Assembly: GCA_030694975.1 (NCBI GenBank)
Contig: JAUYTU010000041.1
Span: 1 to 64,000, forward strand
Reading direction: 5' to 3'
Source: Erysipelotrichaceae bacterium
Lineage (GTDB): Bacteria; Bacillota_I; Bacilli_A; Erysipelotrichales; Erysipelotrichaceae
DNA: 64,000 nt
The notes under the pieces were generated by a model. The model did no database searches and was not told the DNA's origin. It saw nothing but the letters and a program-made list of their open reading frames with translations. Shown in pieces: positions 235-57,771 of the stretch; position 1 is the stretch's first letter, and every line of letters begins with the position of its first letter. A program made the position numbers and the translations under genes.

Positions 235-1197
235 ATGAAAATTACCATAGGAACCTATACGAAGAATGAAAGCAAAGGAATATATACCGTCGAGCTTCAC
301 GACAAACTTTGGAATATCAATATGATTCATGAAATCAGTAATCCGACCTATCTGACAAAGATGAAGGATACCTTGTTTACCGTGGTCAAAGACGGTGAAA
401 AAGGTGGAATTGCGGCTTTTCGAGCCTCAAAATTTGTGGATCAATATACAGAAGAAGGTTCTGCGCCTTGCTATGTATCCGTAATCAAAGAGCGTAATGT
501 CGTAATGACCGCAAACTATCATAAGGGTTGTGTCGATGTGTTCACTTTTGACGGAAAATTGCATCACATTCAAAAAATAGAATATGTGGAAGGATCGAAA
601 GCTCATTTCATTCAGTATGATGCTCGATACAACCTGGTATTTGTCTGTGATTTGGGATTGGATGCTATCTATGCCTATACCATTGACAAAGACAATAAAC
701 TTTCTTTCTTATCTCATTATCGTTGTGAGAAGGGATCAGGTCCACGTCATTTGGTCGTACACCCGGAAGAAAATTATGTATATGTACTAACTGAACTGAG
801 CAGTGAATTGCTCGTATTAAAGCTGGATAAGAACGGTTTTGAACTGATGAGTAAGAAGAGTTTACTTCCCGAAGGTGAAGATCAGAAGAAATGGGGAGCT
901 GCCATTCGCATGTCGAAGGATGGTAATTTCATTTATGTATCCAATCGCGGTCATGATTCGATCAGTGTGTTTGAAACACTCGAATATGGAAGGTTTGTGA
1001 AGATGATTCAAAACATTCCGACCGAAGGTATTCAACCCAGAGATTTTAATTTGAGTAACGATGATGATTATCTGGTGGTGGGGAATATGGAATCGGACTC
1101 ACTGACGTTGTTTACCAGAAATAAAACATCCGGATTACTTACGTTGGCTCAAAAGGATGTGTATGTTCCGGAACCCACGTGTATTTGGTTTGATTGA
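235..1197 (+). CDS. pgl: 6-phosphogluconolactonase, beta-propeller (lactonase) family
   Basis: A 320-residue protein of the seven-bladed propeller lactonase family (PF10282 type), which hydrolyses 6-phosphogluconolactone in the oxidative pentose phosphate pathway; relatives include YbhE and YkgB. The family features are the opening GTYT, GPRH near residue 165, QPRDF near 263 and repeated blade strands such as YVYVLTE and FIYVSNRG. There is no signal peptide, so it is cytoplasmic. The ATG at 235 was preferred to one at 154 because GGAGG sits at 222-226 and the family begins at this point. It stands alone, with a terminator just after it. Some relatives act on other lactones, so the exact substrate is inferred. 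Confidence 0.82.
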   Translation: MKITIGTYTKNESKGIYTVELHDKLWNINMIHEISNPTYLTKMKDTLFTVVKDGEKGGIAAFRASKFVDQYTEEGSAPCYVSVIKERNVVMTANYHKGCVDVFTFDGKLHHIQKIEYVEGSKAHFIQYDARYNLVFVCDLGLDAIYAYTIDKDNKLSFLSHYRCEKGSGPRHLVVHPEENYVYVLTELSSELLVLKLDKNGFELMSKKSLLPEGEDQKKWGAAIRMSKDGNFIYVSNRGHDSISVFETLEYGRFVKMIQNIPTEGIQPRDFNLSNDDDYLVVGNMESDSLTLFTRNKTSGLLTLAQKDVYVPEPTCIWFD

Positions 1198-8728: not shown

Positions 8729-9124
8729 ATGAGTTTCAAAGACAAATTGAAAAATTTCATTAATCCGGTAGAAGAAGACGAAGTTCTCGAACTTTCGGTT
8801 GAGGAAGCTCGCATCAGCGAGTATGAAAAACCGAAAAACCGTAATATATCGAAGATTCCTACGGATACAAAAATGGTTTTGTTTGAACCGCGTTCTTTTG
8901 ACGAAGCTGAAGAAGTTGCCCGTCATTTAAAAGGAAAGCGTGCAGCGGTTGTTAATTTACATCGGTTGCCCAGAGAATATTCGCAACGTTCAATCGACTT
9001 TCTGACCGGTGTCGTATTTGCTTTGGATGGCACGATTCAGAAAATCGGACATAACGTTATCTTGTGTACACCGCAAGATATCGGGGTCAGCGGTGAAATC
9101 CGCTTTGATGCAGAAGAAGAATAA
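8729..9124 (+). CDS. sepF: Cell division protein SepF
   Basis: A 131-residue FtsZ-binding protein that anchors and bundles FtsZ at the septum. The amino end (MSFKDKLKNFI) can form the amphipathic membrane-targeting helix; a charged linker follows; residues 50-125 are the SepF core (PRSFDEAEEVARHL, RAAVVNLHRL, FLTGVVFALDGTIQKIG). Ribosome site GGAGGCG at 8717-8723. It leads a unit with divIVA, the usual pairing in the Bacillota division cluster, and ileS follows as it does in many of these genomes. Confidence 0.93.
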   Translation: MSFKDKLKNFINPVEEDEVLELSVEEARISEYEKPKNRNISKIPTDTKMVLFEPRSFDEAEEVARHLKGKRAAVVNLHRLPREYSQRSIDFLTGVVFALDGTIQKIGHNVILCTPQDIGVSGEIRFDAEEE

Positions 9125-9147: not shown

Positions 9148-9636
9148 GTGAGTGAAGCTCCAACAAATCGGTTCAGAGTACTCAAACAAGGCTATGACCG
9201 TTTTGAGGTTGACCGAACCATCGAACAAATGACCTTGGAATTGGATGATTTGAAGAGCCGTCTGGATTTGTATATGAAACAGTCGGAATCTTCATCCCAA
9301 CAGCTCAATCTGATCAAGCAGCGTTATCAGACGTTGATCGGAGAGTTGAATATTCGTGAGAAAGCCGCCGATGAAATTGCGAGGTTGGCTTTAAAAGAAG
9401 CGAATCGCATCATTGATACGGCTCAAAACAACGCGGATTCAATTGTGCGTGAAGCACTGTCGACCGCACGGATCATTTTGGTGGAAATCGCGCGAATTTC
9501 GCAAGATGCCAACGAAGTGAAGTCGGAACTGAAAGAAAAACTGGATGCGCTGAGTCGTTCGATTGAAGACTTGGAGATCCCGGTGGTTCCGAAGATGGAA
9601 TTTTTGAAAGACAAAGATCAAGACTTGCCTTTATAG
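9148..9636 (+). CDS. divIVA: DivIVA-family cell pole/septum protein
   Basis: A 162-residue coiled-coil protein. Residues 6-30 (NRFRVLKQGYDRFEVDRTIEQM) correspond to the curvature-sensing DivIVA amino domain, and most of the remainder is predicted coiled coil with heptad spacing (residues 25-65 and 75-150). It recruits partners to curved membrane at division sites. GTG 9148 is chosen because GAGGG lies at 9136-9140 and SEAPTNRF gives a normal amino end. It is separated from sepF by 23 bases and probably shares its promoter. The distal tail differs in length among relatives, so partner specificity cannot be inferred. Confidence 0.85.
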   Translation: MSEAPTNRFRVLKQGYDRFEVDRTIEQMTLELDDLKSRLDLYMKQSESSSQQLNLIKQRYQTLIGELNIREKAADEIARLALKEANRIIDTAQNNADSIVREALSTARIILVEIARISQDANEVKSELKEKLDALSRSIEDLEIPVVPKMEFLKDKDQDLPL

Positions 9637-9639
9637 CAC

Positions 9640-9817
9640 ACTTCAGAGATCCGGCGGTTGGTGCGAGCCGGGGTGTTAAGTAAATGGATATCACTTGGGA
9701 GTCGTATTTCCGATAGGTAGGAAATAACGTTGGCGGCGTTAACGCATAGAGTGCACGGATTTTCCGTGAACTAAGGTGGTACCGCGTAAACACGTCCTTA
9801 GCCGGACGTTTTTTTAT
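9640..9817 (+). promoter_or_regulatory. T-box leader of ileS (isoleucine-responsive)
   Basis: The T-box core AAGGTGGTACCGCG lies at 9773-9786. The terminator has arms ACGTCC (9792-9797) and GGACGT (9804-9809) followed by seven T. The likely specifier codon is ATC at 9690-9692, followed by A and CTTGG as in the phenylalanine leader of this window. Uncharged tRNA-Ile would bind and prevent termination. The leader starts almost at the divIVA stop codon and no clear promoter is seen in between. Confidence 0.9.
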
Positions 9818-32238: not shown

Positions 32239-32264
32239 ATTTGCTCTGTGTTGGAGGTGTTGAG

Positions 32265-32783
32265 GTGGAATTTTGGCAAGTAGTTCATGTTTTAGGTGGA
32301 TATGAGAGTAAAATTTGTGACTTCATAAACAAGGATTCTCGAAACATTGCCTTTATTCCCAAAAAGAAGAAGGTCTTTCGAAAACGGGGTATAAACAAAG
32401 TAGATGAATCGGTGTTATTTGCTAATTATGTTTTTGTGAAAACGAAGATGGAATTCTTTGAGTTTATAGAATATGTTCAACTATTTCTTGTTGGGATTGA
32501 AGGCTTTATAAAACTTCTTAAACATGATAATGTTGGTACGGAATCATTACTGCCTGAGGAAATAGATTTTCTAAGACGATTTTTAAATGAGAATTTCATA
32601 GTAGATGAGTCATTTGGGATATTGGAAGGTGACTCGGTTATCGTTTTAGATGGACCTTTGGTAGGATGTGAAAGTCTGATAACTAAGATCGATAGGCATA
32701 AACGATTGGCATGGATTCAGTTCAGCATGTTTGGTGAAATCAGAACAATTAGTGTCTCATTGGAGATTATCAGTAAAAAGTGA
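32265..32783 (+). CDS. loaP: LoaP-type NusG paralogue, antiterminator of cassette A
   Basis: A 172-residue specialised NusG. The amino NGN domain begins EFWQVVHVLGGYESK and includes LFANYVFVK and GFIKLLKHDN; the carboxyl KOW domain is LEGDSVIVLDGPLVG. This is the LoaP group, which promotes read-through of terminators in long biosynthetic operons of Bacillota and binds an RNA hairpin. GTG 32265 is chosen because GGAGGTG (32253-32259) precedes it; the frame opens earlier at 32241. About half its residues match the second LoaP (54232-54744), including LLKHDN.GTESL and IKKIDRHKR-like blocks. A structured RNA starts right at its stop codon. Confidence 0.88.
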   Translation: MEFWQVVHVLGGYESKICDFINKDSRNIAFIPKKKKVFRKRGINKVDESVLFANYVFVKTKMEFFEFIEYVQLFLVGIEGFIKLLKHDNVGTESLLPEEIDFLRRFLNENFIVDESFGILEGDSVIVLDGPLVGCESLITKIDRHKRLAWIQFSMFGEIRTISVSLEIISKK

Positions 32784-50508: not shown

Positions 50509-51210
50509 ATGGAAGAAAAGTATTTTGAGGAAAACGAGCGCGAGTTTGAAATTGACTTGGTTGAGTTACTAGCCATTTTATATAAGCATGCGCTTTTAAT
50601 TATGTTGATGACGGCTTTGGGATTGACAGTGGCCTTCGCGTATACGCGCTTCTTTGTAAGTCCGACGTATCGAAGTGAATCAACGGTTTATATCCAACCG
50701 TTAGTCAAAGAGGGTAATTTGAATTTAAATGATTTGAATGTTAATCAGCGGTTGGTCGGTACGTATACGCAATTAGCGAAGAGCAATGCGGTGTTAAATC
50801 AGGTCGTACCGTTCTTTCTGCGGGACGATTTGGATGTGGATACTATTCGTGAGGCTGTATCGGTTTCCGCAATAGGGGATACGCAGATCATTAAGGTGTC
50901 GGCGGTTACGATTGATCCGGAGCTTTCCGCGCGGTTGACCAATCGGGTGGTCAGTGTGTTTATTGAGGAAGTCGTGGAAACGATGACGATTGATAACTTA
51001 AGGGTTATTGATGCGGCGACGGTCAGTACGAAGAAGTTGGGTCCAAACACGATGTTGAATACGGCGATTGGCGGTTTGCTCGGGTTGATGTTGTCGGTCG
51101 GTTTTGTATTTTTGAAATTAATGTTGGATCGTACGATTCACAATCGACATGATGCGGAGAAAGTATTGAATTTGCCGGTATTGGGCGAAATCAATTTCTA
51201 TGAAGAATAA
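50509..51210 (+). CDS. Polysaccharide chain-length regulator / kinase modulator (CpsC/YwqC-like)
   Basis: A 233-residue Wzz-domain protein. Helices at about 28-50 and 177-200 flank the extracellular domain (YRSESTVYIQPLVKEGN, VSAVTIDPELSARLTNRVVSVF), and the cytoplasmic tail ends VLGEINFYEE. It should bind and activate the kinase encoded divergently. It ends 11 bases inside the phosphatase gene. GGGGG lies 8 bases before ATG 50509. Compared with the cassette A paralogue it has the canonical tail near the membrane. Confidence 0.9.
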   Translation: MEEKYFEENEREFEIDLVELLAILYKHALLIMLMTALGLTVAFAYTRFFVSPTYRSESTVYIQPLVKEGNLNLNDLNVNQRLVGTYTQLAKSNAVLNQVVPFFLRDDLDVDTIREAVSVSAIGDTQIIKVSAVTIDPELSARLTNRVVSVFIEEVVETMTIDNLRVIDAATVSTKKLGPNTMLNTAIGGLLGLMLSVGFVFLKLMLDRTIHNRHDAEKVLNLPVLGEINFYEE

Positions 51211-51973
51211 GTTTGTTGATACACATTGTCATGCTTTGTGGGATTTTGATGATGGTGTTAAGTCTATGGATGAATCATTGGCGTTGCTTCGCTGTGCTCA
51301 GATCACAGGGATTGTGACGCTTTTTGTCACTCCGCATATCAATGGGATTTATAATCCGACACAAGAGGAAATTAAAAGTAAAACGCAGGAGTTGATTGAC
51401 TTAAAAAATCAAAACAGTATACCGATTGAAGTTAAGTATGCCTGTGAGTTTCGGGTAAGTGATGAATCAATGCAAGAGATCATAGATAAAAAATATGTTT
51501 GTTATCAGGATACGGACTATCTTTTGGTTGAATTTGTGCGAAGAATCATTGATTTGCGTTTGATTGAGGATGCTCTGTATGAATTGAAAATTTTGGGCGT
51601 TAAGCCGATCATTGCTCATCCGGAGCGCTATTTTGATTCGGAAAGGCAGGCTATCGATTACTGTAAGAAATGGTTGAGTTGGGGAGCTTTCTTTCAAATC
51701 AACCGAACGAGTCTGCTGGGTTTTCATGGGGAGAGAATCGATAAGATATCGTGGCGTTTGGTAAGTGAAGGTTTGGCTCATATCGTCGCTTCCGATGCGC
51801 ATCAGGGTGAGGGACGTAGGGAGTGTCGTTTGGACGATGTGCATGGCGCAATTGAGAGAAGATTTACGACAAGTATAGCCGATGATCTGTGCATCCATAA
51901 TCCCAAGGCGTTAAGTTTAAATGAAGAGCTCAAGCAGATTTCGGTTAAGAAGCCTTGGTGGCACAAAAAATAG
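51200..51973 (+). CDS. PHP-type protein-tyrosine phosphatase (CpsB/YwqE-like)
   Basis: A 257-residue manganese-dependent phosphatase that removes phosphate from the kinase tyrosine cluster. PHP metal ligands: DTHCHALWDFDDG (about 8-20), FVTPHING, the glutamate in YACEFRV, AHPERY (about 140), and ASDAHQGEGR (about 198). It overlaps the modulator gene and is followed by a strong terminator. Kinase, modulator and phosphatase together form one control module, likely serving both cassettes because cassette A's own kinase homologue seems inactive. Confidence 0.93.
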   Translation: MKNKFVDTHCHALWDFDDGVKSMDESLALLRCAQITGIVTLFVTPHINGIYNPTQEEIKSKTQELIDLKNQNSIPIEVKYACEFRVSDESMQEIIDKKYVCYQDTDYLLVEFVRRIIDLRLIEDALYELKILGVKPIIAHPERYFDSERQAIDYCKKWLSWGAFFQINRTSLLGFHGERIDKISWRLVSEGLAHIVASDAHQGEGRRECRLDDVHGAIERRFTTSIADDLCIHNPKALSLNEELKQISVKKPWWHKK

Positions 51974-51978
51974 CAATT

Positions 51979-52007
51979 AAAAAGCGTTTCTTAGGGAAGC
52001 GCTTTTT
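51979..52007 (+). terminator. Intrinsic terminator after the phosphatase gene
   Basis: Twelve-base arms (51979-51990, 51996-52007) with one G-T pair, loop TTAGG, ending in TTTTT. Confidence 0.85.
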
Positions 52008-52010
52008 CAT

Positions 52011-52152
52011 AAAGAAAACCAGCACCGGGGGGCGGTGCTGGCTTTATAGGATTCGTAGTCCCTAATGATTTTGTGACGTCTTGGGGAAGCCGCCACGGGA
52101 TTCGTAATCCGTGTCGGAAATGTGTGTGGGGGGGGGATTGCATTTCCGACAA
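52011..52152 (-). ncRNA. Candidate small structured RNA on the minus strand
   Basis: Four hairpins occupy this gene-free stretch: 11-base perfect arms at 52112-52122/52141-52151 with a loop of nine C on the minus strand, a bulged stem at 52094-52113, a small hairpin at 52049-52061, and a final stem 52019-52026/52034-52041, after which the minus strand reads TTTTCTTT, so it acts as a terminator. A minus-strand promoter ATGACA-17-TAACAT (complement of 52181-52186 and 52158-52163) would start transcription right at the first hairpin. No reading frame of note. Alternatively, these hairpins belong to a plus-strand leader; the terminator polarity argues against that. Confidence 0.5.
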
Positions 52153-52186
52153 TTGCAATGTTATCACATATTTTACGTGTTGTCAT

Positions 52187-52328
52187 CAGTTATTATGTAA
52201 GATGAGATAAAATTCACTGAATACTAAAATTCATTAAAGCATCTGTCCGAAAATTGTGGCAATGAAAGTATTTACAAACAGTTGTTTGATAATATATATC
52301 GATTAATGTGAAATCTTCCATTAGAAAC
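52187..52328. other. Gap without recognisable content
   Basis: A+T-rich sequence between the candidate RNA promoter and the cassette B promoter. TTTACA (52271) and TATATA (52293) with 16-base spacing could be a weak second promoter; nothing else is seen. Confidence 0.5.
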
Positions 52329-52357
52329 TTGTGAAAATTTGTGACCTATGTTATATT
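52329..52357 (+). promoter_or_regulatory. Promoter of polysaccharide cassette B
   Basis: TTGTGA (52329-52334), 17 bases, TATATT (52352-52357). A second TTGTGA begins 10 bases downstream of the first. Same -35 as cassette A. Confidence 0.55.
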
Positions 52358-52381
52358 CATTACGTTAGGGGTGTGGGGCTC

Positions 52382-54232
52382 TTGAAAAAATATCGCAATG
52401 TTCTTTTATCAATATTTGACATCGTGATGGTTATAGTAGCGTATTTTGTAGCGTTGTGGATCCGTCTCGACTTTTCTTTGCGCAGTATTGCATATTTTCA
52501 TCATCTAGTAGAACTGCTACCCGTCATTGTGATCGCGTATTTTATTGCATTCAAATTGGCTAAAATCGATAAAACGTTGTGGACTTCGCCAAGTGTTGAT
52601 GAAGCTTTGCGAGTTTCGATGGCATCCTTGTTAGGATTTGCGATTGTGTTTGTCTTCTGTGAGTACGTCACGCCTGTTCAGTTGCCGTTGAGTGTTCATT
52701 TCATTGCGCTGATGCTGGTTGTGCTTTCTATGATATTTGTACGTTTCTCGTATCGCATCTACCGGCTGTTATCGTCGTTGAGTGGGAATAACTCGGAGCA
52801 TTGCAAGCGGACGTTGATCGTGGGTGCCGGTGAGGCGGGTACGATGCTTCTGAAGGAAATTCTTCAAAATAAAAAATACAATAATAAAGTCATCGGCTTT
52901 TTGGATGATGATGCGTATAAAATTGGAAAATTAGTGATGGGTATTCCAGTATTAGCTAAGTCTGAAGAAGTAGGAACGTTGGCGATCAAGGAAAATATTG
53001 ATGTTATCTATATTGCGATGCCTTCGGTGTCTGTGAAAAAGCAAAATGAAATTGCGAAGCTGTGTTATGGAAGTCAGGCGAAGGTATATATGCTTACCGG
53101 TTCGCAAGATATGATTCAGGCGGCCGGGATTCATCGTTCGATTCGGGAAATGTCGATTGAGGATTTGTTGGGCCGTAAGGAAGTTCACTTAAAGCATGAG
53201 GATCTAAAAGAACTGATACACGATAAGAGCATTTTGGTTACGGGAGCCGGGGGTTCGATTGGCAGTGAGTTGGTGCGTCAGATCGTGCTCTACCAACCCA
53301 AAAGTGTCATTATGTTGGATATCAGTGAGAACTCGATCTACGATTTACAGTCGGAGTTGAATATTTGGCGCAAAGAGAAGAAAATTGCGAAGGATGTTGA
53401 GTTTCTGCCGATCATTGGGTCCATACGGGACATCGCCGTGCTCGATATGATCTTTGAAAGAAGTAAGTTTGACCTTGTGTTTCATGCGGCAGCGCATAAG
53501 CATGTGCCTCTGATGGAGTCCATGCCGGCTGAAGCCGTGAAGAACAATATCTTTGGCTCTCACCACATCATCGAACTTTGTAAGAAACACAAAGTAAAAC
53601 AGATGGTTCATATTTCTACGGATAAGGCGGTCAATCCGACCAATGTCATGGGTGCGACCAAACGCTTTGTGGAGAAGATGATTCAGACCATCGGTAAAGA
53701 TGGTCCGACCAAGTTTGTGGCGGTGAGGTTTGGTAATGTATTGGGCTCCAGTGGCAGTGTCATTCCATTGTTTAAAAAGCAGATTGCCAGTGGCGGTCCG
53801 GTGACGGTCACGGATCCGGAAATGATTCGTTACTTTATGACCATAACGGAAGCTGTATCGCTGATTCTTCAAGCCGCGTCTTATGGCGAAGGCGGGGAGA
53901 TATTTGTTCTCGATATGGGAGAACCCGTGAAAATTTTGGATCTTGCGGAAAAAATGATATCTTTAGCCGGTTATGTTCCGTATCAGGATATTGATATTGA
54001 ATTTACGGGGTTAAGACCGGGGGAAAAACTGTTTGAAGAATTGTTAATGGGGGAGGAGGGTCTTAAAGAAACGCCGAATCCGCTCATTAAAGTAACTAAG
54101 CCCATGGAGATTTCCAGAGAGCAGATCATCCGTGAGATTGAATACCTCAGAAAAGTCGTAGCGGTCGATCAGTCGCGCGGAGAGATAATTAAAGCGCTGA
54201 TGGAGACAGTTCCGACGTATAGGCAGAGTTAA
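52382..54232 (+). CDS. capD: CapD/PglF-type membrane nucleotide-sugar 4,6-dehydratase, cassette B
   Basis: A 616-residue paralogue of the enzyme at 29006, with the same four amino helices, the regulatory Rossmann domain (IVGAGEAGTMLLKEIL), the catalytic loop VTGAGGSIGSELVRQI and STDKAVNPTNVMGATKR with the methionine-lysine pair. The product is probably UDP-4-keto-6-deoxy-GlcNAc. TTG 52382 is chosen because AGGGGTG (52368-52374) precedes it and LLKKYRN aligns with the paralogue's start; the frame is open back to 52331 through promoter sequence. No reductase, aminotransferase or initiating transferase follows within this cassette, so it may share those of cassette A. Confidence 0.88.
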   Translation: MKKYRNVLLSIFDIVMVIVAYFVALWIRLDFSLRSIAYFHHLVELLPVIVIAYFIAFKLAKIDKTLWTSPSVDEALRVSMASLLGFAIVFVFCEYVTPVQLPLSVHFIALMLVVLSMIFVRFSYRIYRLLSSLSGNNSEHCKRTLIVGAGEAGTMLLKEILQNKKYNNKVIGFLDDDAYKIGKLVMGIPVLAKSEEVGTLAIKENIDVIYIAMPSVSVKKQNEIAKLCYGSQAKVYMLTGSQDMIQAAGIHRSIREMSIEDLLGRKEVHLKHEDLKELIHDKSILVTGAGGSIGSELVRQIVLYQPKSVIMLDISENSIYDLQSELNIWRKEKKIAKDVEFLPIIGSIRDIAVLDMIFERSKFDLVFHAAAHKHVPLMESMPAEAVKNNIFGSHHIIELCKKHKVKQMVHISTDKAVNPTNVMGATKRFVEKMIQTIGKDGPTKFVAVRFGNVLGSSGSVIPLFKKQIASGGPVTVTDPEMIRYFMTITEAVSLILQAASYGEGGEIFVLDMGEPVKILDLAEKMISLAGYVPYQDIDIEFTGLRPGEKLFEELLMGEEGLKETPNPLIKVTKPMEISREQIIREIEYLRKVVAVDQSRGEIIKALMETVPTYRQS

Positions 54233-54744
54233 TGAACTGGCATATACTGTTTGTCCGTGGTGGTCAAGAAGAAAAAATATTAACCAAAGTAAATGATGCT
54301 AATCATGAAGCATTTATCCCAAAAGTTACGAAGGTTTTTAAGAGAAAAAATGAGCTTAGAAAAGAAGATGTGCCATTATTCAAGAATTATGTATTTGTGA
54401 AGTCACAGAGTAACACAAGAGAATTTCAAGAATATATCCAACATGAAATTCAACATATGACTGGATTTATCAGATTATTAAAACATGATAACGAAGGAAC
54501 TGAATCACTTTATCCTCATGAGAAGGAATTTCTGATGAAGTTTGCGAATAAAGATCATGTGATCAATCAATCACAGGGATTTATAGAAGGTGATAAGATC
54601 GTCATCACCGAAGGACCACTAATTGGGCATGAAAGCTTAATTAAGAAGATTGACCGTCATAAAAGAATCGCACAGTTAGACATTGAAATGTTTGGGGACA
54701 AAAGAACAATTACCGTCGGACTCGAGATTATAAGTAAACGATAA
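54232..54744 (+). CDS. loaP: LoaP-type NusG paralogue, antiterminator of cassette B
   Basis: A 170-residue specialised NusG with the NGN domain (NWHILFVRGGQEEKIL, LFKNYVFVK, GFIRLLKHDNEGTESL) and KOW domain (IEGDKIVITEGPLIGHESLIKKIDRHKR). It is clearly homologous to the LoaP of cassette A yet has many differences, so the two may recognise different RNA. The start codon overlaps the stop of capD by one base, so dehydratase and antiterminator are made together. The conserved structured RNA begins 6 bases after its stop. Confidence 0.9.
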   Translation: MNWHILFVRGGQEEKILTKVNDANHEAFIPKVTKVFKRKNELRKEDVPLFKNYVFVKSQSNTREFQEYIQHEIQHMTGFIRLLKHDNEGTESLYPHEKEFLMKFANKDHVINQSQGFIEGDKIVITEGPLIGHESLIKKIDRHKRIAQLDIEMFGDKRTITVGLEIISKR

Positions 54745-56462: not shown

Positions 56463-57771
56463 CACACCACTAGTTTTCGTAGTTATTTACATCTTAATGA
56501 CGATATTATTATCTTTTATTGGACCAGTTAAGTATTATAATTATTCGTATGGGTATATGTTATTCTTCATGACCCTAGTTATTATAGCAATAGTTACTGG
56601 ATATTTGTCAACATCCAAAAGTTATATACTAAATCAAAAAAGATTTCTTTTTAAATCAAGTAGATTTTTTGCCAAAGAGAGTACAATTGATTTAATTGTT
56701 CAATTCTCTATAATAATTGCTTTGGCTTTTGAGGTTATGATTTTTGTCTCATACTCTAAATCAATTAGTAGTTTTAGTCTTCAAACAATATTTTATAACA
56801 TTATAAATATTGGTAAGATTTATCAAATATCACTTGATGTTGCCAGAGAATCCCGAGATGTGAGTCTTTTACGACAATTTATCACTTTATTTGGGGTATT
56901 TAAACAAATTGCAATAGTGGGATATCTAATAAGAAGCGATCGACTTGTAAAATTCAAAATATTTTTCTGGATAACTCTTATTTTGAGTATGGTAAATGTG
57001 TTAGCTTTTAAAGGAACACAAAAAGAAATAGGTGATTTAGCTATTTATTTCTTAAGCGTTTGGATGATTAAGCATGCAATGAGGGGGAATATTAAACTTA
57101 GTAAAATACTAGTACCTATTTTAATTCTTGTCTTTGGGGTTTTTGGTTTTATGCAACTATCGAGAGCTAGTACATATAATATAAATATAAAAGAATTTCA
57201 CAACTCATTTTTTATGTTCAATTCAAATCATATTGTTTACAAGTTATTTGGTAGCAAAATGGGGTTTGCAATTACTTCAGTTATTTTTTATGTTTCAGGT
57301 GGCTACTATGGATTAACTAAATCGCTTCTAGTTCCATTCAGGTGGACCTATGGATTAGGGAATTCATTTGCATTATCCTCATATGCTGCACAATATTTTG
57401 GCTTTGAAAATATGATAGTAAACTCAATTCCTTCTAGAGCAGAAGCGATTACAGGTTATCCTGCATTAATGTATTGGAGTACAATGTTTCCATGGATTGC
57501 ATCTGATTTGACTTTCCCTGGAAGCATTGTCTTTATGTTTGCTATAGCAAGAATATACTCAATCTGTTGGAAAGAATCAGTACATAGAAATAACTTACTG
57601 TCCGCTTTATTGTTCTCAAGACTAAATATTATGTGGGCATTCTTACCAGCAAACAATCAACTAATGCAGACTAGAGAATCAACATTAGCTACTCTTTTTT
57701 TATTGATTATATGGTTTTTCTTTCATAATAGATTTAGTTCAATGACGGTAAAAGTAGGGAGAAAAAAATGA
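56443..57771 (+). CDS. wzy: O-antigen/capsule polymerase-like protein (Wzy), cassette B
   Basis: A 442-residue protein with about ten helices and a loop with conserved-looking NSFALSSYAAQYFG and PSRAEAITGYPALMYWSTMF before the last helices, as in oligosaccharide repeat unit polymerases. Same low G+C as its neighbours. ATG 56443 follows AAGGTG (56429-56434); a GTG three codons earlier is possible. It ends in an ATGA overlap with the glycosyltransferase gene. Function is inferred from topology and from lying between a flippase and a transferase. Confidence 0.75.
   Translation: MNKKTVNTPLVFVVIYILMTILLSFIGPVKYYNYSYGYMLFFMTLVIIAIVTGYLSTSKSYILNQKRFLFKSSRFFAKESTIDLIVQFSIIIALAFEVMIFVSYSKSISSFSLQTIFYNIINIGKIYQISLDVARESRDVSLLRQFITLFGVFKQIAIVGYLIRSDRLVKFKIFFWITLILSMVNVLAFKGTQKEIGDLAIYFLSVWMIKHAMRGNIKLSKILVPILILVFGVFGFMQLSRASTYNINIKEFHNSFFMFNSNHIVYKLFGSKMGFAITSVIFYVSGGYYGLTKSLLVPFRWTYGLGNSFALSSYAAQYFGFENMIVNSIPSRAEAITGYPALMYWSTMFPWIASDLTFPGSIVFMFAIARIYSICWKESVHRNNLLSALLFSRLNIMWAFLPANNQLMQTRESTLATLFLLIIWFFFHNRFSSMTVKVGRKK

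Follow-up and report, generated by a model that had tools for sequence, protein, structure and literature searches.

Introduction

Pairing of C-rich small RNAs (sRNAs) with the Shine-Dalgarno (SD) sequence is established in the Firmicutes (PMC8216469; PMC4132741; PMC3961350). In Bacillus subtilis, RoxS/RsaE and FsrA are C-rich sRNAs that act on G-rich ribosome sites, and RosA is a stand-alone G-rich sponge (PMC8216469). The LhrC1-5 sRNAs of Listeria monocytogenes, which are induced by envelope stress, carry redundant C-rich loop motifs and bind surface-protein mRNA (PMC4132741). In Staphylococcus aureus, the C-rich motif of RsaA (RF01816) masks the SD sequence, and the capsule is affected indirectly via MgrA (PMC3961350). 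The alpha-r14, NfeR1 and cuckoo RNAs (RF02344) are Hfq-independent molecules of 123 nt made up of three hairpins, each with an anti-SD C-rich loop (PMC10746234). A literature search on sRNAs specific to the lineage studied here turned up nothing specific.

The original prediction placed a small RNA gene on the minus strand of the window (the whole stretch of 64,000 nucleotides analysed) at 52011-52186. We propose that this strand very probably does encode a genuine small regulatory RNA, here termed X, as judged from its sequence and its relatives. The genome concerned (G000; 2.19 Mb in 42 contigs), of which the window is contig C27, was compared with six congeners (G001-G006), giving a set of seven genomes of the genus. 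One X-bearing congener is the metagenome-assembled genome 'Firmicutes bacterium HGW-Firmicutes-10' (PHAF01000002.1). The assemblies of G002, G003 and G004 are 98%, 69% and 79% complete.

Results and discussion

Genomic setting and architecture of X

X lies between a cpsB-type phosphatase gene and an epsC-like gene, and the features of the locus are as follows.

51200..51973, plus strand: cpsB/capC-type phosphatase gene, convergent neighbour of X (Pfam PF19567, 1.6e-47)
51979..52007, plus strand: cpsB terminator, convergent with X (fold -14.1 kcal/mol)
52011..52152, minus strand: sRNA X, with a predicted length of about 142 nt
52011..52045, minus strand: rho-independent terminator of X, with a 13-bp stem, a CCCCC loop (52032-52028) and a U-rich tail
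52049..52110, minus strand: branched middle domain of X, where the second of the C-rich loops is CCCC (52086-52083; CCCCC in relatives)
52112..52151, minus strand: 5' hairpin of X, with an 11-bp stem and an 18-nt loop, the proposed seed, in which C9 (52136-52128) precedes ACACACA
52158..52186, minus strand: promoter of X, with -35 ATGACA (52186-52181), a 17-nt spacer and an extended -10, TG-A-TAACAT (ending at 52158)
52329..52357, plus strand: epsC promoter, TTGTGA-17-TATATT, conserved in relatives
52365..52392, plus strand: epsC 5' leader and TTG start
52382..54232, plus strand: epsC-like membrane-bound nucleotide-sugar dehydratase/epimerase (Polysacc_synt_2; PF02719, 1.6e-118), a predicted target of X

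A NusG-domain gene follows the epsC-like gene at its 3' side. The window holds two LoaP-like NusG-paralogue genes (54232-54744 and 32241-32783), each downstream of an epsC-type gene, and the NusG domain was confirmed for 54232-54744 alone of the two; this arrangement suggests processive antitermination of polysaccharide operons. The window also contains a T-box leader (RF00230, 119 bits) at 9605-9802 on the plus strand, ahead of what looks like an isoleucyl-tRNA synthetase gene. It was the only element of the window to pass in the Rfam scan, which returned nothing at gathering score for X.

The 176 bases of the minus strand (52011-52186) fold at -57 kcal/mol (z -6.1), a value equalled by none of 200 shuffles, against a z of only -1.7 for the plus strand. 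The terminal stem with TTTTCTTT on the minus strand that had been proposed reaches -20.8 kcal/mol alone. The minus-strand promoter at 17-base spacing was likewise borne out, including a TG before the -10, although by itself the match is at chance level (three sites found in the stretch, 2.2 expected); it is kept in three relatives nonetheless, where the -10 reads TAATAT. The position of the -10 places the 5' end of X near 52152, so that 52158-52186 is promoter and the small first hairpin predicted there falls outside the RNA. Within the RNA, a hairpin at the 5' end is followed by a branched middle domain and then by the terminator hairpin, with loops formed by C-runs and CCCCACACACA. The loop of nine C was present as described, but as one of three C-rich loops (C9, C4 and C5) and not as the only one. 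These unpaired UCCC-type motifs are conserved across four species as C7-9, C4-5 and C5, and at the level of sequence X has the promoter and rho-independent terminator of its own that are expected of a trans-acting sRNA with C-rich loops.

Conservation of X and the alternatives at the locus

X was found in three of the six congeners (G001, G005 and G006), every time beside epsC. Among 273 genomes of the family its covariance model matched four, each belonging to this genus. X is absent from G002 and was not detected in G003 or G004, where its absence is not certain given the incomplete assemblies. Neither the plasmid and phage collections nor an exact-pattern scan of IMG/VR gave a match. Over the four species, 120 of 141 positions of the transcript and 28 of 33 of the promoter region (52158-52190) are invariant. 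The flanks are poorly conserved, at 4/37 from the cpsB stop to the terminator and 52/135 between the X and epsC promoters; the corresponding figures are 70/174 for the 3' coding end of cpsB and 28/28 for the epsC leader and start. The alignment brings out a near-invariant promoter block (TGATGACAACAC..AAAATATGTGATAATAT), the loop with the C-run, the branched middle domain and the terminator stem; the 5' loop is invariant save for the length of its C-run, which varies by two bases, and the remaining gaps are of 1-2 bases. Two pairs of the middle domain are altered on both sides, and as 71 of 500 shuffles reach the same covariation this is suggestive only. From the conserved promoter, structure and terminator, together with the loop shared with other RNAs described below, we infer that X is transcribed.

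The convergent layout with the phosphatase gene that had been pointed out is itself conserved, since relatives have a different hairpin at the same place; the position of the cpsB terminator is thus retained and its sequence is not. G006 has an additional gene between cpsB and X, with the element itself undisturbed, which indicates that X is a free-standing gene. The inserted gene (stretch L012, about 493-792, minus strand) encodes a small membrane protein and occupies this place in that congener only.

One alternative assigns the function to the plus strand, which would be a leader or attenuator at the 5' side of epsC or else the 3' UTR of cpsB. The element does lie between these two genes, it is palindromic enough to fold on either strand, and the plus strand gives a sub-threshold Rfam match to Hrs10 (24.8 of 108 bits). 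However, the conserved promoter that belongs to epsC itself is situated well downstream, past the element, so that epsC does not have the plus strand of X as its leader; the cpsB terminator precedes the element, and in G006 the extra gene intervenes. The plus-strand fold is not significant, the minus-strand promoter is conserved, and 182 of 184 cells of the consensus structure are paired on the minus strand as opposed to 173 of 184 when read as plus, a usage of G-U pairs that favours the minus strand. We regard a plus-strand function, which the original prediction had held open as a leader, as improbable.

It could also be argued that the conservation reflects a DNA-level element, bound by a transcription factor or otherwise, with no RNA made. 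The adjacent intergenic region is regulatory and palindromic stems could bind proteins, but the element has the full architecture of an sRNA gene (promoter, hairpins and U-tract terminator) with changes that preserve pairing, and the other loci with this loop have only the loop and the promoter-hairpin-terminator layout in common with X, on different stems. This explanation is very improbable. As a separate observation, in relatives (stretches L011, L012 and L013) the interval from the X promoter to the epsC promoter contains a pair of imperfect TGAAA-N4/5-TTTCA palindromes, which are possibly operator sites and are degenerate in the window (52191-52325). A TGAAA-N4-TTTCA palindrome as a shared operator was rejected for the window, its occurrence there being not above chance.

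The statement that the region has no reading frame needs qualification, as a formal 59-amino-acid ORF runs from 52186 to 52007 on the minus strand. A short peptide would thus be conceivable, but the ORF starts within the -35 box, it has an internal stop in G006, and the variable length of the C-run and the gaps of 1-2 bases break this sole ORF in relatives by a frameshift after the C-run. Frame analysis refuted it as a coding sequence, and the chance that a peptide accounts for the conservation is negligible.

Other RNAs with the same loop

A search across the genus with GTGTGNGGGG, which is complementary to the X loop, led to further small genes, named A, C, E and B.

G000 contig C34, stretch L216 1897-1962, minus strand: sRNA A, about 61-65 nt, with the loop of X
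G000 contig C34, stretch L216 2023-2100, minus strand: sRNA-like gene E, about 75 nt, in tandem directly upstream of A
G005, stretch L218 2295-2352, minus strand: sRNA-like gene C, the third with the same loop (UCCCCCCACAC), with promoter and terminator
G000 contig C10 about 57206-57275 (stretch L217 2207-2276), plus strand: G-rich RNA gene B, about 67-70 nt

Gene A, unlinked to X, is present in G000, G001, G002, G005 and G006 and consists of a promoter (TTGAAA-N17-TATGAT, the -10 being TATTAT in the window's genome), a GATTGC/GCAATC stem with the loop UCUAUCCCCCCCACACAC, and a terminator. Its neighbour E (promoter TTGATA-N17-TAATAT, loop CCCCC) has 98% mean identity in the five A-bearing genomes. 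Gene C, found in G005 only, presents the loop UCCCCCCACACUUU on an ACCCTAT/ATAGGGT stem. The stems of X and A are unrelated, yet their loops have a 15-mer (ATCCCCCCCACACAC) in common in G001 and G005; in G000 and G006 the common stretch is a 13-mer. When 268 family genomes were scanned with TCCCCCCN{0,3}ACAC (TCCCCCCN0-3ACAC), every site in the genus fell within X, A or C; of the copies inspected outside the genus, most lie inside long ORFs and none forms a comparable hairpin with a terminator. Covariance-model matches for A and B outside the genus were rejected, as they consist of terminator-type stems only and do not share the loop.

Two paralogous elements were also seen in the same genome, near 5833 of stretch L060 and near 8911 of stretch L061 (both minus strand). 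Each has a hairpin with a CUUCCCCCA or CUCCCCCCA loop and then a GUACCCC...GGGGUAC terminator, and their upstream sequences (ATGTGYTACGTTTTTCATC...) are near-identical; they may represent a repeat family or additional C-rich sRNAs.

RNA B as a candidate sponge

Gene B, conserved in G000, G002, G003, G005 and G006, has a terminator as well as a promoter (TTTACA-N16-TATAAT), and its sequence includes UAUAUGAUUGC...GUGUGUGGGGAGAGAUAGAG. Like RosA, it is G-rich, stands alone and is complementary to C-rich sRNAs, with a match to most of the 5' hairpin of A. In the four genomes in which both were compared (G000, G002, G005 and G006) the predicted A-B duplex reaches -53.9, -55.8, -42.5 and -51.8 kcal/mol (z -7.6, -7.5, -4.9 and -6.3). 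With the loop of X, B can form an uninterrupted duplex of 10 bp in G000 and G006 (a length reached by 0 and 1 of 300 shuffles) and only 7 bp in G005. B is therefore a good candidate for an antisense RNA or sponge acting on A, and a weaker candidate with respect to X; its complementarity to A is evident in the sequences.

Predicted targets of the X loop

The X loop was ranked against 736 predicted translation starts from about 39% of the genome. A lipoprotein gene came first (z -2.4 relative to shuffles), an M48 membrane peptidase second (z -3.8) and epsC twelfth (z -1.2). Complementarity of the C-rich loop to the ribosome sites of capsule genes, which had been put forward for checking, was present at epsC, where GTGTGGGG of the leader (52371-52378) can form 8 bp with CCCCACAC of the loop; this is not beyond shuffles, the whole of X fares no better (z 0.1), and epsC was rejected as a proven target. 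The epsC leader TTAGGGGTGTGGGGCTCTTG is perfectly kept in the four X-bearing genomes, as a good ribosome site would be in any case. The M48 site, TGTGTGAGGGG, is conserved in G000, G001 and G006, even though the upstream sequence of G006 diverges. The GTGTGGGGG site upstream of the lipoprotein gene is retained in G003, in which X was not detected (69% complete), and so need not depend on X.

Any C-run would pair with a G-rich ribosome site. In G000, hydrophobic N-termini are encoded by 27 of 46 genes with G-run ribosome sites against 175 of 580 (59% v 30%; P 1e-4), and in G001 by 8 of 14 (57% v 27%; P 0.03); the enrichment is weaker in G003 (8/17, P 0.09) and was not seen in G002 (9/26, P 0.5). 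The difference between sRNA-bearing and sRNA-lacking genomes is only suggestive, and the enrichment for hydrophobic N-termini fits an envelope regulon without amounting to proof.

Another possibility is that X is a real sRNA whose C-rich loops mainly bind a protein or RNA B, as a decoy or anti-sponge, and not mRNAs. B is indeed the better match for the loop of X, at 10 bp (z -3.7 in G000) as compared with 8 bp for epsC (z -1.2), and the occurrence of the loop in sRNAs with unrelated stems is what a common ligand would produce. Against this, B matches A best and not X, the X-B pairing is weak in G005, and G002 keeps A and B without X; furthermore, mRNA ribosome sites well complementary to X exist, the M48 site being conserved in three X-bearing genomes. 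We consider a decoy function unlikely.

Proposed function

Our preferred explanation, to which we assign a probability of roughly 0.7, is that X is a trans-acting sRNA that blocks G-rich ribosome sites, mainly of envelope genes, through its C-rich loops, and that X, A and C form a set with B as a partly shared partner. X would be transcribed independently from its own sigma-70 type promoter as an RNA of about 142 nt. Its 5' loop, AUCCCCCCC(CC)ACACACA, above the other C-rich loops, would dock on G-rich ribosome-binding sites, and the docked RNA would block translation initiation, a mode of action shown for RoxS/FsrA, RsaA and LhrC (PMC8216469; PMC3961350; PMC4132741), or destabilise the mRNA. 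Contact of the C-run with purine-rich ribosome sites, as first suggested, remains the best mechanism: the loop is invariant apart from the length of its C-run, it is re-used by other sRNAs, and pairing is predicted with the epsC leader and other G-rich ribosome sites. Both the targets and the direction of regulation are predicted; cell-envelope genes would be preferred, with the divergent capsule gene epsC and the M48 membrane peptidase as leading candidates and lipoproteins as further probable targets. A and C may act via the same seed loop on different stems, and B may titrate A, its main partner, and partly also X, in the way that RosA titrates RoxS and FsrA.

A broader and more tentative proposal, which we think could well be wrong, is that these RNAs make up a genus-specific envelope circuit in which a seed, UCCCCCC(C)ACAC(AC), has been grafted onto unrelated stems, the sRNAs act together to repress capsule, lipoprotein and membrane-protease genes at their G-rich ribosome sites, and one G-rich antisense RNA titrates them, the whole having evolved independently of RoxS/FsrA-RosA and alpha-r14. 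If real, it would offer compact testable pairs (X-epsC, X-M48 and A-B), and the retention of a seed loop on different stems would help to find sRNAs that whole-molecule models miss.

Comparison with known systems

By its sequence features X is an sRNA gene of a known functional kind with a genus-specific network around it, and none of these RNAs matched an Rfam family at gathering score. X aligns with the full model of alpha-r14 at 29.4 bits (26.4-27.9 for its homologues; gathering score 58.8) and is likewise laid out as hairpins with C-rich loops. However, the defining anti-SD motif CCUCCUCCC, present in each of the three alpha-r14 hairpins, is absent from X and the phylum differs; X is thus an analogue and not a member, and the resemblance is most likely convergent. 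The predicted action of X, a C-rich motif over an SD sequence, is that of RsaA, although X did not match the RsaA model and the A/E tandem region stayed under its gathering score (29.4 of 50 bits). To the RoxS/RsaE and FsrA systems these RNAs showed no relation in sequence or in Rfam. Like LhrC1-5, X, A and C are several sRNAs with redundant C-rich loop motifs, but the LhrC copies are virtually identical whereas X, A and C share the loop only. The plan of C-rich sRNAs with a G-rich RNA complementary to several of them is that of RoxS/FsrA-RosA in B. subtilis and of the RsaI sponge in S. aureus, with the differences that RosA is about 225 nt and B about 67 nt, that RoxS and FsrA target central metabolism and X likely envelope genes, and that the C-rich stretch is here a hairpin loop shared as a 13-15-mer. 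If the network is real, the design of C-rich sRNA and G-rich sponge exists outside Bacillus and Staphylococcus in RNAs of unrelated sequence, which bears on the convergence of such networks.
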